The notes under the pieces were generated by a model. It was not told the origin of the DNA. It searched no databases and saw nothing but the letters and a program-made list of their open reading frames with translations. Source: a virus. From it: 26,933 bases of DNA. Location of the stretch: the IMG/VR virus record IMGVR_UViG_3300021375_000133, positions 1-26,933 of that record; one strand, written 5' to 3'. The first letter of the stretch is position 1, and the number at the start of each line of letters is the position of its first letter. Positions 3,506-25,022 of the stretch are shown here, one piece after another. The position numbers and the translations under genes were made by a program.

Positions 3506-4507
3506 ATGAAGTATCTATTGATTGACACTGCTAACATGTTTTTCCGTGCAAGACACGTTGCCTTTCGTGCAAGTGACCCATGGGAGAAAGTTGGTTATGC
3601 ACTGCACATAAGCATGGCTGCTATCAACAAAGTTGTAAAAAAGTTTGATGCTGATCATGTTGTGTTTTGTTTAGAAGGTCGTAGTTGGCGTAAGGATTAC
3701 TACAAGCCATACAAGGCTAATCGTACTGAAGCAAGAGCTGCACAAACTGAACGTGAACAAGAAGAAGACAAACTGTTTTGGGAAACATTTGACGACTTTA
3801 ATCAATATCTACGTGATAAGACAAATTGTAGTGTGTTACGTGATGCCAATGCAGAAGCAGATGATCTTATTGCACGTTGGATTGCACTGCATCCTACAGA
3901 TGAACATATTATTATCAGTAGCGACAGTGACTTTTATCAGTTGATTACAGAGAACGTAACACAGTTTAATGGCATTACTGATAACTTGATTACACTAGAA
4001 GGTATATTTGATGCTAAAGGCAAGCAGGTTATAGATAAGAAAACAAAAGAACCTAAACTGTTAGGCGACCCTGAGTACTTGTTATTTGAAAAGTGCATGC
4101 GAGGCGACAGCAGTGATAACGTGTTTAGTGCATTTCCTGGTGTACGTAAGAAAGGCACTAAGAACAAAGTCGGCTTGTTAGAAGCATATGCAGATAGACA
4201 TGCTAAAGGATATGCTTGGAACAACATGATGTTACAACGTTGGACTGATCATGAGGACAAAGAGCATAGAGTGTTAGATGACTACAACAGAAACAAACAG
4301 CTAATTGATCTTACACAACAACCTGAAGAGATAAAAGACAGGGTTGACTTAGAAATTATTAATCAAATAACCAACAAGGACATAGGACAAGTAGGTTCAA
4401 AGTTCTTAAAATTTTGTGGTAAATACGAGTTGAATCGACTCAGTGAACATGCAGAACAGTATGGACGTTGGTTGAATCAAACATATCAAGGAGCATTAAA
4501 GCAATGA
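3506..4507 (+). CDS. T4 RNase H/FEN-like 5'-3' exonuclease
   Basis: The 333-residue protein belongs to the FEN/5'-3' exonuclease family that includes T4 RNase H, which removes RNA primers from Okazaki fragments. Visible metal-site motifs are LIDTAN (5-10, Asp7), the Arg/Lys-rich arch GRSWRKDYYKPYKANR (58-73), NAEADD (115-120), SSDSDF (138-143) and RGDSSDN (199-205) followed by FPGV, the helix-hairpin-helix side. The length is close to T4 RNase H (about 305). It has its own consensus promoter and an AAAGGA ribosome binding site. It heads a run of small genes with overlapping starts, typical of marine T4-like replication-gene surroundings. Confidence 0.88.
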   Translation: MKYLLIDTANMFFRARHVAFRASDPWEKVGYALHISMAAINKVVKKFDADHVVFCLEGRSWRKDYYKPYKANRTEARAAQTEREQEEDKLFWETFDDFNQYLRDKTNCSVLRDANAEADDLIARWIALHPTDEHIIISSDSDFYQLITENVTQFNGITDNLITLEGIFDAKGKQVIDKKTKEPKLLGDPEYLLFEKCMRGDSSDNVFSAFPGVRKKGTKNKVGLLEAYADRHAKGYAWNNMMLQRWTDHEDKEHRVLDDYNRNKQLIDLTQQPEEIKDRVDLEIINQITNKDIGQVGSKFLKFCGKYELNRLSEHAEQYGRWLNQTYQGALKQ

Positions 4508-4950
4508 GTACAACTATAGCAAGACCAATTGTAAACGGAAAGTTTTGGGTAATTAAACAAGACGAGAAGAAGATTGGATCAGTTGAAAAAGATAATAACG
4601 GTTACTTTGTTACAACTCAACAAGGCAATGCTCGATTTAAAACAATTAAAAGTTTACGTGATGTAACCAATATTGCATTTGAAGATGATCAAGAACGTAT
4701 AAAGTATCCTGAGAATCAAGTAAACAACTTTCCCACTGACGTAAAACCATTCAATGGTGTATATAATATAAACACACGATTACCAATATACACCAAAGAA
4801 AAGAAGTCACGTAGTTGGTATGCCGCTGGATATTACAAAATTAAGATTGGTAAAAAAGTAAAAATGCACTTCTGTCCAAAATTGATCTTGTTAGAACGTT
4901 ACGGATACATGGGTCCGGCTAAATCAGCAGATGGTTTTGAGTATAAATGA
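4504..4950 (+). CDS. Conserved marine T4-like phage protein, unknown function
   Basis: I chose ATG 4504 (148 residues) over the possible upstream start at 4468, because AAGGAG lies about 10 bases upstream and the start overlaps the nuclease stop by four bases. The product begins MSTTIARPIVNGKFWVI and is rich in beta-strand-forming residues, with no transmembrane segment and no enzyme motif I know. I recall similar proteins of unknown function next to the RNase H gene in marine T4-like phages. Its TGA overlaps the next ATG. A link to replication is suggested only by position. Confidence 0.8.
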   Translation: MSTTIARPIVNGKFWVIKQDEKKIGSVEKDNNGYFVTTQQGNARFKTIKSLRDVTNIAFEDDQERIKYPENQVNNFPTDVKPFNGVYNINTRLPIYTKEKKSRSWYAAGYYKIKIGKKVKMHFCPKLILLERYGYMGPAKSADGFEYK

Positions 4951-5150
4951 GCGGACTCTACATTAGAAAGTTTATTGATCGTGTTGCACAATGTGAAGCA
5001 ACAAGTGCAAACGATTTTGTTTGGAACATGCAGGATGCCAAAAACTTGCATGGTGATATAACAAAATTATTATTAGACCTAAGGCTTTTACAATCTAATC
5101 CTGTAGAAGAAACTCCACAAACAATAGAAGTTGATGGTGGAAATTGGTAG
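4947..5150 (+). CDS. Small conserved phage protein, unknown function
   Basis: This 67-residue, largely helical protein starts in an ATGA overlap with the preceding stop. The N-terminal half (YIRKFIDRVAQCEA, then QDAKNLHGDITKLLLDL) resembles a short helical conserved protein that I associate with marine T4-like phages. No catalytic residues or membrane segment are visible. It probably depends on translational coupling to the upstream gene, since no ribosome binding site is obvious. It ends at a small hairpin-forming region (5150-5205). Confidence 0.75.
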   Translation: MSGLYIRKFIDRVAQCEATSANDFVWNMQDAKNLHGDITKLLLDLRLLQSNPVEETPQTIEVDGGNW

Positions 5151-7826: not shown

Positions 7827-7855
7827 TTGACAAATAGAGTTTATTATCGTATACT
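7827..7855 (+). promoter_or_regulatory. Sigma70-type promoter with AGTTAGAAA leader
   Basis: TTGACA (7827-7832), 17 bases, TATACT (7850-7855). The -35 box is part of AAAGGTTGACA, repeated at several other promoters here. An AGTTAGAAA element (7870-7878) lies in the leader, followed by AAAGGA before ATG 7893. Confidence 0.88.
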
Positions 7856-8532: not shown

Positions 8533-9942
8533 ATGATTGAAGATGGCGTTGTTCATATTGTAGGTGGATTTGAATGGATAGACTTTATCCATGTGATGGG
8601 AGGTATTCTTGCAGGATTTTTAGCAGGTTTGATTCCCGGCATTGGCAATACTATAATGTTGTTTATGCTTTATCCTTTCCTTATGGAATCAACTCTTTTT
8701 CAAATGTTAGTTTTCTATCTTGGACTTGCATCAGTATCTCAGTTTAGTGGCAGTGTAATTGCAACTGTATTTGGTATCCCAGGTGAGTCAAGTAGTTTGC
8801 CAGCAGTACGTGAAGGTAAACGACTATTTGAAAGAGGGCAAGGCAACTTTGCTATAAGTGGAGCTGCCATTGGATCAGTGTTTGGAAGTTTCATAAGTGT
8901 GTGTGTTATTTTTGCAGTGCTTCCGTTTGTAATACATGGACTTATGAACTTCTACAGTGCTGAAATACAGTTTGGAATACTTTGGATTGCAACCTGTAGT
9001 GTGGTATTCTTACTAGGCAAAAGTTGGAAAGAAAATGCAGTTGTATTTGCACTTGGAGCCGCACTAGGACTAGTAGGACAACATAATGTTCCATTCTTTA
9101 TATTCGGAGAAGGCTATCTGCCTTATGATATGTTCCCAAGCCTATATGAAGGCTTACCTCTGTTTCCAGTTGTTGTAGCACTCTACGTATTTCCAACACT
9201 GTTAAACACAATTGAACAATTCAAAGACTTCAAGTATGAAAACGACCGAGACTACTTTGATGATAGCTCACCATTGTTGCACTTTAAACATTGGTGGCAA
9301 AACAAGTGGGCCAGTATACGTGGTAGTATATTTGGTGCTATTGTTGGCTTGGTGCCACATATTGGTACAGGTATAGCCAGTAACTTCAGTTATGCAGTTG
9401 AAAAGAAACGTGCCATTAAGAATGGTAGTTATCGCGAAGATGGACACATGAAGAGTCTAATCAGTGCTGAAACTGCCAACAACAGTTGTACACTAGTATT
9501 GTTGTTGCCATTAATGCTGATTGGTATTCCAATGTCGCCAAGTGAAACAATTCTTATATCCCTAATAGAAATGAACAGCTATGTGATCAATTGGAGAATC
9601 AGCATTGAACAAAACTTTTTTGAAAGACTAACCTATTGGTTTGTTTTTATCAACATGGTTGCAGTGGTACTGTGTTGGCCTGCAGTGAAATATGTCAATG
9701 TACTGAAAAAACTTAACATGGTTCATATGATCTATGCTACTGGTGTTATACTGGTTGGACTTGTGCTATACACAGGGTTTCAGCAATATGACATGTGGTA
9801 TCATTTTACTGTTATGATTATACTTTTACCTTTAGGATATTTTTTACGTAGAACAGAAACATTAATACTTTTAATTGCATTTATATTGCAAGACAAATTG
9901 TTGATGAGTTCTAATGTTCTATATAATTTGCATTTTGGTTAA
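8533..9942 (+). CDS. tctA: Tripartite tricarboxylate transporter, large membrane subunit (TctA family)
   Basis: This 469-residue multi-pass membrane protein matches TctA, the large permease of secondary tripartite tricarboxylate transporters. The family's duplicated signature is visible: GLIPGIGNT near residues 32-40 and its counterpart GLVPHIGTGIAS in the second half. Also present are FGIPGESSSLPAV in place of the usual GxPGxxxxA loop, SAETANNS (family PETANN) and MLIGIPMSPSET. The length is slightly below the usual 500. It sits behind its own promoter and is followed by a TctC-type binding protein, but no TctB small subunit is found in the window. The substrate is not predictable from the sequence; carboxylates are typical for the family. 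Confidence 0.9.
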   Translation: MIEDGVVHIVGGFEWIDFIHVMGGILAGFLAGLIPGIGNTIMLFMLYPFLMESTLFQMLVFYLGLASVSQFSGSVIATVFGIPGESSSLPAVREGKRLFERGQGNFAISGAAIGSVFGSFISVCVIFAVLPFVIHGLMNFYSAEIQFGILWIATCSVVFLLGKSWKENAVVFALGAALGLVGQHNVPFFIFGEGYLPYDMFPSLYEGLPLFPVVVALYVFPTLLNTIEQFKDFKYENDRDYFDDSSPLLHFKHWWQNKWASIRGSIFGAIVGLVPHIGTGIASNFSYAVEKKRAIKNGSYREDGHMKSLISAETANNSCTLVLLLPLMLIGIPMSPSETILISLIEMNSYVINWRISIEQNFFERLTYWFVFINMVAVVLCWPAVKYVNVLKKLNMVHMIYATGVILVGLVLYTGFQQYDMWYHFTVMIILLPLGYFLRRTETLILLIAFILQDKLLMSSNVLYNLHFG

Positions 9943-23476: not shown

Positions 23477-23505
23477 TTGACAGACACAATATGTTGTGCT
23501 ACTAT
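23477..23505 (+). promoter_or_regulatory. Sigma70-type promoter with AGTTAGAAAA leader
   Basis: TTGACA (23477-23482), 17 bases, TACTAT (23500-23505), with the AAAGGTTGACA form. The leader element AGTTAGAAAA lies at 23515-23524, followed by GAAAGGA before ATG 23540. Confidence 0.86.
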
Positions 23506-23539
23506 TAAGTATAAAGTTAGAAAATGAAAGGACTTTAAT

Positions 23540-23755
23540 ATGGAAAAAGTAAAATATATTGTCAAAGGCTTAGGTGCAGTTCTTGCAGGTGTAGGCTTAA
23601 TGTTAGCACTAGGATATGGTTTAGTTGCAATTGGTAAACTATTAGGCTTAGAAGCAGAACATGTTACAGGTGGTGTAGTTGTTCTTATAGCACTTGGCAT
23701 GATGGTGTTTTGGTTATCAGAAGATTACGAGCTTAAAAAACTAAAAGACAAGTAA
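23540..23755 (+). CDS. Small two-helix membrane protein
   Basis: The 71-residue product has two hydrophobic helices (about 8-31 and 42-60) joined by a short GLEAEHVTGG loop, with a charged C terminus. Glycines are spaced as in tightly packed helices. It starts after GAAAGGA in a promoter-led cassette. No family is recognised. A small holin-like or membrane-modulating role is conceivable because of the two-helix shape, but no lysis genes adjoin it. The structured RNA region begins six bases after its stop. Confidence 0.72.
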   Translation: MEKVKYIVKGLGAVLAGVGLMLALGYGLVAIGKLLGLEAEHVTGGVVVLIALGMMVFWLSEDYELKKLKDK

Positions 23756-23761
23756 ACTGAA

Positions 23762-23963
23762 TTACAATGCAGAGTGTGTGAATGGTAATTAGTGAAAAAT
23801 TTGCAACGATATTGCAAGGATTATTACAGCCTAACTGCAAAGAGCACGGGGGCCATAGCCTCTATTAGATATGCATGGTGGACCTGGTCGGCAGTGAAAC
23901 TCAGCACTGCCCGTTTAGATCGTGAGAGGGTCCTTAAACGCGATGCAGTACTCTGCATTGTAA
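23762..23963 (+). ncRNA. Structured RNA, riboswitch-like candidate
   Basis: A gene-free stretch, richer in GC than its surroundings. Its ends pair perfectly over 14 bases plus two G-U pairs (23762-23777 with 23948-23963), closing a roughly 200-nt domain. Inside are three hairpins: TTGCAA 23801-23806 with 23812-23817; GGGGGC 23848-23853 with GCCTCT 23858-23863; and a two-tier arm, GGACC 23880-23884 with GGTCC 23929-23933 around GGCAGTG 23890-23896 with CACTGCC 23905-23911. The 3' closing strand can instead form an 8-bp hairpin (23941-23948 with 23953-23960). The ribosome binding site GAGGAG follows four bases after. No known class is recognised. Confidence 0.6.
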
Positions 23964-23977
23964 CACGAGGAGACAAA

Positions 23978-24184
23978 ATGTATTTAGAAAACAGAGATAC
24001 AAAGTATAAAAAAGTCGGCAACAAACACTATGTCGAGTTTTACGAGGACAACAAAATGCTAGGTGTAATTGATTATACCAAACACAGTATGCATTATGTT
24101 GAAGATGCTGTGGATAACTTTCGCAGTGGATTAATGAAAATAGAAACAATAAAAGGATATGATATCAATGGCAAGAATCAGTAA
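23978..24184 (+). CDS. Small hypothetical protein downstream of structured RNA
   Basis: I chose ATG 23978 (68 residues) with GAGGAG eight to ten bases upstream. The in-frame GTG at 23792 would run through the structured RNA and lacks a ribosome binding site. The protein (MYLENRDTKYKKVGNKHYVEF...) is a small charged alpha/beta-looking domain with no known motif. Its last 17 bases overlap the start of the omega-like gene, so the two are probably translated together. If the upstream RNA is a switch, this is its first target. Confidence 0.7.
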   Translation: MYLENRDTKYKKVGNKHYVEFYEDNKMLGVIDYTKHSMHYVEDAVDNFRSGLMKIETIKGYDINGKNQ

Positions 24185-24431
24185 TACTAAAGGAATCAAG
24201 CAAGTAGGCGGAAGTCAATTTGAATTAATAATGGCCGCTTCAGGAAGAGCCAGAAGTTACAGTGCTGATAATCAGCCATTAACGCCTCATTTTAATAAAA
24301 GAGGAATGACTGCTCTTAGAGAAATAGAGCAAGGCTTGGTAGCATATGATGATATCAAAGAAATGATGATAAACAAAAATCAGACTGTTAGGCCTAAAGA
24401 AGAAGAGGCTGATCCTATATTGGATAACTAA
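24168..24431 (+). CDS. rpoZ: RNA polymerase omega subunit-like protein
   Basis: The product has 87 residues from ATG 24168, chosen because AAAGG is about 12 bases upstream and MARI matches the omega N terminus; an ATG at 24159 is too close to AAAGG. The whole core aligns with RpoZ. QFELIMAASGRAR here corresponds to RFDLVLVAARRAR in E. coli, followed by a PLxP segment, and ALREIEQGL corresponds to ALREIEEGL. Omega folds against the C-terminal end of beta' and helps assemble the polymerase. A phage copy could replace or compete with the host subunit during infection. The C-terminal tail is acidic, as in many omegas. Located beside the structured RNA. Confidence 0.85.
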   Translation: MARISNTKGIKQVGGSQFELIMAASGRARSYSADNQPLTPHFNKRGMTALREIEQGLVAYDDIKEMMINKNQTVRPKEEEADPILDN

Positions 24432-24449: not shown

Positions 24450-25022
24450 ATGAAAATAATTTTATTACTAGTGGCTCTACTTTGGAGCCACTCTTCATTT
24501 GCAGACAAAGGCATAACAATATGCAACGGACAGTTTGCTTTATGTGCAGCCAGTGCATGTGAACCCACTGGGGGAACTATAACCAATCAAAACGGTGATT
24601 CCTTTCCAGAAGTCAAGTGTACATGTCCTATATTATATGGTGATAACATTGCTGACCTCAGTGCTGGTAACATGACAAGTTGTGAGCCAACTGATGAGAA
24701 TTCAGTGTGGAGCACCTTTTGGCCAAGATTTGATTATCCAAGACAACAGAACGATTTCTCACACAATGAAGCACAAATGAAAGGCAACATAGTGGAGTGT
24801 CCAGCAAGTTTAAAACAAGGGCATAAAGCAAGTAATTGTTTTAGTTGGAACTGCAAAATAGACAAAAACGGCGTAGCCATATGTTCATGTCCAATGGGAC
24901 AAGAACCACCGGAGACTGCTTTTTTAATTGAAAGTACAGAAACAGGCACAGATCGTTGTTCACAACATCCTGTTAGTTTGCCACTTGTGAGTCAGATGTT
25001 TGAACGCAAAAAACAAAATTAA
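24450..25022 (+). CDS. Exported Cys-rich protein
   Basis: The 190-residue protein starts after CGGAGGCG (excellent ribosome binding site). A signal peptide covers residues 1-18 (MKIILLLVALLWSHSSFA, cleavage before DKG). The mature part has 12 or so Cys in pairs and CxC clusters (CTC, CSC, NC), spaced like disulfide-bonded small modules, so it is probably folded in the periplasm or outside the cell. No known domain is recognised. It could bind an envelope component or be attached to the virion. It stands alone between the omega-like gene and the short gene cluster downstream. Confidence 0.75.
   Translation: MKIILLLVALLWSHSSFADKGITICNGQFALCAASACEPTGGTITNQNGDSFPEVKCTCPILYGDNIADLSAGNMTSCEPTDENSVWSTFWPRFDYPRQQNDFSHNEAQMKGNIVECPASLKQGHKASNCFSWNCKIDKNGVAICSCPMGQEPPETAFLIESTETGTDRCSQHPVSLPLVSQMFERKKQN

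Follow-up and report, generated by a model that had tools for sequence, protein, structure and literature searches.

Few structured RNAs are shared by several phage lineages, and a region of viral DNA lying between two small genes raises the question of whether it encodes such an RNA and what the RNA would do there. The DNA analyzed, hereafter the window, is the 26,933-base IMG/VR virus record IMGVR_UViG_3300021375_000133. The original prediction, made from the letters alone, described a riboswitch-like domain of about 200 nt whose two mutually exclusive pairings exchange by strand displacement beside a ribosome-binding site, perhaps in an undescribed class; it named covariation among relatives as its check and translation from GTG 23792 as its refutation.

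Relatives of the RNA in large-phage contigs

Relatives were collected through searches with neighboring proteins and through DNA patterns. Homologous RNA was present on ten other contigs (L002, L003 and three identical copies, L008, L007, L028, and L016/L017), and L018 holds only its 3′ end; each contig carrying the RNA has a single copy. The L002 RNA is 97% identical to that of the window, the four contigs sharing the L003 RNA include one of 328 kb, and the L016 contig measures 316 kb. A covariance model (R1) built from the six closer sequences, leaving out L016 as the most divergent lineage, recovered the L016 RNA at 41 bits, with an E-value of 4e-6 among 688 kb and of 1.9e-6 within its own 316-kb contig. 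This match was the sole one in that contig, and it lay at the syntenic site, directly flanked by the glycine-zipper and omega genes.

For further relatives, we gathered 16 omega, 36 Cys-rich-protein, and 61 glycine-zipper loci, plus loci with core patterns; those of them searched with covariance models R1 and R2 yielded no lineage beyond four, plus the 3′ fragment in L018. Judging by homology, the RNA is kept in at least four lineages (four to five known) of large-phage contigs, all of one phage group. No RNA was found in omega-bearing contigs of another group (L019-L022). Isolate phage records gave no DNA match to the RNA, only weak matches due to chance, and one exact pattern of the RNA was matched in none of 84,980 bacterial genomes, a scan whose reach stops short of a diverged bacterial version. 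A simple stem-plus-motif descriptor proved too loose to discriminate relatives.

As for the phage itself, its exonuclease is closest to those of PA5oct- and CBB-type jumbo phages among isolates, at ~50% identity. The window carries this PA5oct/CBB-like exonuclease (phrog_107) at 3506-4507, an NAD synthetase (phrog_11189) at 803-1564, and, as unusual phage cargo, a TctA-family tricarboxylate transporter gene (PF01970, 212 bits) at 8533-9942. In L019 and L022, contigs of another large-phage group that lacks the RNA, the omega-like gene is served by a promoter of its own and carries a 13-bp hairpin, GCATACACAGTCT...AGATTGTGTATGC, in its leader (~4930-4970).

Compensatory change defines the fold and its strand

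The perfect 14-bp terminal stem of the original prediction is present as P1 (Table 1). The two G-U pairs that had been added to extend it to 16 bp compete with the conserved helix P2. P1 is the only perfect 14-bp inverted repeat in the window with partners within 260 nt, but dinucleotide shuffling of the window produced a comparable repeat in 15 of 300 trials, which makes the stem weak evidence by itself. The fold energy of 23762-23977 is -68.9 kcal/mol, compared with -53.9 ± 4.0 kcal/mol for 200 dinucleotide shuffles, and lies below all of them (z -3.8). L003 and L028 each fold better than their shuffles, but L016 alone does not (z -0.8).

The decisive evidence that the structure exceeds chance is compensatory change across relatives, the very check that had been proposed. 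Without guidance, RNAalifold proposed P1, P2, P4, and P5 from the six closer sequences, aligned with MAFFT, and 11 of the pairs were double-changed. When L016 was added, 98% of cells paired and 15 pairs were double-changed, in an alignment that was fitted to the covariance model and hence leans towards the structure. None of 500 column shuffles of alignment A5 reached its covariation score, and shifting one strand by one to three bases lowered pairing in A5 to 38-51%. Compensatory changes are present in P1, P2, P3, P4, and P5. A hand count over 41 pairs in six sequences, with hand-placed helices, gave 195 Watson-Crick cells out of 220, 23 G-U, no A-C, and 2 other; 15 of these pairs were double-changed. 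Since wobbles would read as A-C on the other strand, the 23 G-U against zero A-C cells assign the RNA to the + strand.

Table 1. Coordinates of the RNA, its helices, and the surrounding transcription unit in the window
Feature	Position	Strand	Basis or remark
Sigma-70-type promoter of the transcription unit, TTGACA-17-TACTAT	23477..23505	+	Pattern unique in the window
Small membrane-protein gene (71 aa), directly upstream of the RNA	23540..23755	+	Homologous ORF before the RNA in L003 and L028
Structured RNA domain, whole	23762..23963	+	Covariation and covariance-model homologs
P1, 5′ strand, TTACAATGCAGAGT	23762..23775	+	Partner 23950-23963; four pairs double-changed in L016
P1a, variable hairpin	23785..23827	+	GUAAU...AUUAC in the window, AAGGCG...CGCCUU in L028, GUGU...ACAC in L016
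CCUA linker before P2, invariant	23830..23833	+	CCUA also in L016
P2, 5′ strand, ACUGCA	23834..23839	+	Partner 23944-23949; 4 of 6 pairs double-changed, 100% paired
P3 hairpin, GCCA...UGGU, 20-nt loop	23852..23879	+	Fourth pair A-U, U-A, and C-G in the three close lineages
P4, 5′ strand, GGACCU	23880..23885	+	Partner 23928-23933; three pairs with compensatory change
P4b/P5 arm, GGUC/GAUC and GGCAGUG/CACUGCC	23886..23921	+	Three compensatory pairs in P5; naturally absent in L007
P4, 3′ strand, GGGUCC	23928..23933	+	Pairing across relatives
Near-invariant core CCUUAAAC, P4-P2 junction	23932..23939	+	Same in every homolog, L016 and L018 among them
P2, 3′ strand, UGCAGU, abutting P1 with zero linker	23944..23949	+	Pairing across relatives
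P1, 3′ strand, ACUCUGCAUUGUAA	23950..23963	+	Pairing across relatives
GAGGAG, ribosome-binding site of the next ORF	23967..23972	+	Sequence
68-aa ORF after the RNA	23978..24184	+	No Pfam or PHROG match
RNA polymerase omega-like gene	24171..24431	+	PF01192, 23.8 bits, just below the cut-off of 26

The predicted inner hairpins and multi-branched shape are borne out by the fold and by the relatives. The 3′ strands of P1 (14 bp) and P2 (6 bp) are contiguous, giving an almost continuous 20-bp helix, and the remaining fold consists of two nested three-way junctions, P1/P1a/P2 and P2/P3/P4. Both helices persist while their letters change: the L016 terminal stem, AUACGGUUUGAAGU/ACUUUGAAUCGUAU, retains 14 pairs with a largely different sequence, and P2 reads ACUGCA/UGCAGU in the window, GUUGCA/UGCAAC in L003, ACUGUA/UACAGU in L028, and ACUGUU/GACAGU in L016. 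P3 takes the general form GCCN/NGGY. An alternative GGGG/CCUC pairing that overlaps this hairpin was rejected, being broken in L028, and GCCA/UGGU fits the three close lineages better. P1a varies in sequence and length, yet a hairpin is possible in each lineage, partly by inspection. In L007 (94-262), a natural deletion, or possibly an assembly error, takes out the P4b/P5 arm and leaves P4 intact, suggesting that the arm is dispensable.

The junctions display a conserved single-stranded core made up of CCUA, UGAGAG, and CCUUAAAC, the last closing off the near-invariant loops around which P3-P5 are arranged. Among the three close lineages, invariant columns number 9 of 54 in P1a (17%), 4 of 4 in CCUA (100%), and 15 of 17 in the segment 157-173 after P5 (88%). 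Two stacked three-way junctions with an invariant core are usually a sign of binding or catalysis.

Early mRNAs of T7-like phages carry intercistronic RNase III sites, which likewise place a double-stranded element between tightly packed cistrons. Given the contiguous 14 + 6 bp of P1 and P2 and the tight placement of the RNA between cistrons, the domain might be an mRNA-processing or mRNA-stability signal, in which host RNase III would cut the ~20-bp helix, parting the membrane-protein mRNA from the downstream mRNA, with the inner fold as a mere cap. We regard this as distinctly unlikely, as a bare site needs neither the lineage-wide core (CCUUAAAC, UGAGAG, and CCUA) nor the compensatory helices P3-P5, and it is in its conserved inner junctions and core that this RNA differs from the T7 sites.

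The region is not translated

Read from GTG 23792, the frame has no stop in either the window or L002, so one could imagine the region extending the 68-aa ORF at its N terminus. However, the same frame contains several in-frame stops in L003, L008, and L007, with indels that are not multiples of three; between the window and L002 it shows non-synonymous plus synonymous changes, and genes other than the 68-aa ORF come after the RNA in L028 and L016. The stops, frameshifts, and different following genes exclude translation from GTG 23792, leaving the extension a negligible probability and disposing of the refutation foreseen by the original prediction. By comparison of the sequences, the RNA region is not protein-coding.

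The RNA keeps its place upstream of omega while its neighbor changes

In the window, the transcription unit runs from the promoter through the membrane protein, the RNA, the 68-aa ORF, and the omega-like gene to the Cys-rich protein, confirming that the RNA leads into a small gene and the omega-like gene. The promoter layout is likewise found 5′ of the membrane-protein gene in L002, L003, L008, and L028. The RNA starts 7 nt past the stop codon of the 71-aa gene, and in every complete copy an upstream stop codon precedes P1 within a few nucleotides. No promoter-like site was found just upstream of the RNA and no terminator-like site directly after it, so the RNA would be made on the operon transcript, having no promoter of its own.

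Two further observations concern this unit. At 23477-23508, a palindrome sits between the -35 and -10 elements; it reads CACAATATGTTGTG in the window, and on the reverse strand of L028, 5′ of the membrane-protein ORF, it is a perfect CACAACATGTTGTG, which makes it a possible operator on sequence grounds. The Cys-rich, secreted-looking protein (24450-25022) recurs at 36 virus loci, is absent from isolate phages, has no Pfam match, and has no relative among bacterial genomes.

These surroundings bear on a second explanation, namely that the RNA is a cis-acting operon regulator, a riboswitch or autoregulated leader whose junctions would bind a ligand or a protein such as omega and alter ribosome-binding-site access or transcription into the omega part. 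The Shine-Dalgarno sequence lies a few nucleotides 3′ of P1 in the window, L003, and L028 (3 nt in the window, and not the four first given), the two nested three-way junctions with their conserved core are aptamer-like, and omega is found further downstream in every RNA-bearing lineage, within ~1.3 kb and in one operon-like run. Against this stands the first gene 3′ of the RNA, which is the 68-aa ORF, an unrelated 98-aa ORF, the omega gene, or a 247-aa ORF depending on the lineage. A riboswitch calls for consistent regulated genes; by this measure the immediate downstream gene, which differs among the window, L028, L016, and L018, speaks against one, and the recurrence of omega further downstream in every lineage speaks for one. 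In L028, four other genes separate the RNA from the 68-aa ORF; in L018, the 247-aa ORF stands between the RNA and omega; and in L016, the RNA begins a few nucleotides past the glycine-zipper stop codon, omega is the next gene, and its start codon is ~40 nt from P1, a distance that also counts against cis regulation. Comparison of the gene orders indicates that the RNA keeps its place after zipper or membrane-protein genes and upstream of omega, and not next to any one immediate neighbor.

The alternative hairpin is neither conserved nor competitive at equilibrium

The original prediction of a switch rested on ATGCAG occurring twice (23767 and 23943) and CTGCAT once (23953), counts that are correct, and on the 3′ strand of P1 folding into a hairpin with its immediate upstream neighbor. 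Such a hairpin is possible in the window (-12.3 kcal/mol), but it is not conserved, and P2 is the conserved pairing of that neighboring strand. Its energy is -10.3 kcal/mol in L002, -5.7 in L003, L008, and L007, -6.2 in L028, and -0.6 in L016, where it is in effect absent. Folds without P1 cost 6.3-13.1 kcal/mol, and the P1 state is favored in every relative. From these energies and the cost of opening P1, we conclude that the alternative hairpin is neither conserved nor competitive at equilibrium, and the two-state switch by strand displacement is not upheld; in the close lineages, the hairpin could conceivably still act briefly while the RNA is being transcribed.

Among the seven sequences, we found no conserved mutually exclusive pairing that could serve as an expression platform. 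Nor did we find a conserved terminator or an alternative that sequesters the Shine-Dalgarno sequence. For a cis-acting regulator, it counts that three of four lineages can form the alternative 3′ hairpin; its loss in L016 and a P1 of 14 perfect or near-perfect pairs, favored by 6-13 kcal/mol, count against it. Weighing these points together with the gene neighborhood, we consider cis regulation possible but somewhat unlikely.

Comparison with known RNAs

At the gathering threshold, Rfam 15 reported only three tRNAs in the window, and its E-value mode, applied to the RNA region of the window, L016, L003, and L028, returned nothing but two chance matches far under threshold. With no Rfam 15 family matching the window or the relatives, the suggestion of an undescribed class stands, and literature searches found no described counterpart among the papers covered, which is not proof of absence. 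The RNA resembles 6S RNA in its ~200 nt, its long terminal stem, and a polymerase-subunit gene nearby, but 6S RNA is one long hairpin with a bubble, whereas the phage RNA has a branched fold. The 6S model (RF00013) hit none of four phage contigs at E<=5 and detects 8 of 14 control genomes.

In retron msr-msd RNA, a long terminal inverted repeat encloses inner hairpins, and the domain described here is closed in a similar way. It differs in that the retron reverse transcriptase (PF00078) was absent from the four contigs searched, in a search that detected it in control genomes. The Ro (TROVE) protein of the Y RNA/Ro system (PF05731; phage contigs only) and a TnpB/Cas12f-like nuclease (PF07282) were also absent from four contigs. 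Retron, Ro/Y RNA, and TnpB-type guide RNA were rejected on the absence of these partner proteins from the four contigs.

The EAR element of the eps operon is a processive antitermination RNA. HK022 putRNA is an antitermination RNA that acts on polymerase in cis (PMC9378689). The phage RNA shares with both an operon-internal position, and its place in mid-operon, with an RNA-polymerase omega-like gene downstream, would suit a role in processive antitermination, with the RNA working in cis on RNA polymerase as they do. It is larger and of different architecture, however, with no sequence or structure match to a known antitermination RNA in Rfam and no convincing intrinsic terminator found between the RNA and the omega gene, which makes this explanation very unlikely.

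The phage-borne aptamer motifs manA and wcaG regulate recognizable gene sets (PMC2864571). Like these riboswitch-type elements, the RNA is a conserved multi-junction phage RNA close to a ribosome-binding site; it departs from them in sitting between cistrons, in its varying downstream gene, in its 14-bp P1, and in having no Rfam match. GOLLD and ROOL are ornate phage-associated structured RNAs (PMC12286853), and with HEARO (Rfam) they share an occurrence in or near phages and a function that is unknown. The phage RNA is far smaller than GOLLD and ROOL, and none of the three models matches it.

A proposed stable module of the operon transcript

Comparative sequence evidence establishes a conserved ~200-nt structured RNA of large phages, on the + strand, tight between genes and without a matching Rfam family. 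What the fold does is less certain. The explanation we prefer, though tentatively, is a constitutively folded, processed or stable module of the operon transcript that would act through its conserved core. P1 closes the domain with P2 stacked on it end to end, and the long, non-switching P1/P2 helix would delimit the RNA, probably as a processing boundary, so that a stable module would persist and its core would bind a protein or another partner, from the phage or its host. Four of the contigs yielded no phage RNase III, and any processing would therefore depend on enzymes of the host.

In favor of the module, the core shows much stronger conservation than P1a, and the RNA stays while the downstream gene changes. 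Against it, the RNA is always 5′ of omega and in many cases immediately precedes a ribosome-binding site, an arrangement equally compatible with a cis role, and it comes from four to five lineages of one phage group, with L016 unremarkable when folded alone. Because the alternative hairpin is unconserved, P1 is costly to open, and the downstream gene varies, a stable, perhaps excised module is more likely than a riboswitch that switches P1. A bolder version, which we think rather unlikely, is a new class of stable trans-acting jumbo-phage RNA, excised via the P1/P2 helix, whose CCUUAAAC/UGAGAG core would bind host or phage machinery, RNA polymerase for instance, with the phage omega encoded alongside. 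This RNA of very large phage genomes, absent from Rfam 15, has its strand, ends, helices, core, and natural P5 deletion defined and is therefore ready for direct tests.

Elsewhere in the window, the sigma-70-type promoters at 7827, 23477, 25870, and 26143 share a leader motif, AGTTAGAAA(A), located a short distance 5′ of the ribosome-binding site, which from its recurrence is possibly a common 5′ UTR element of the phage.
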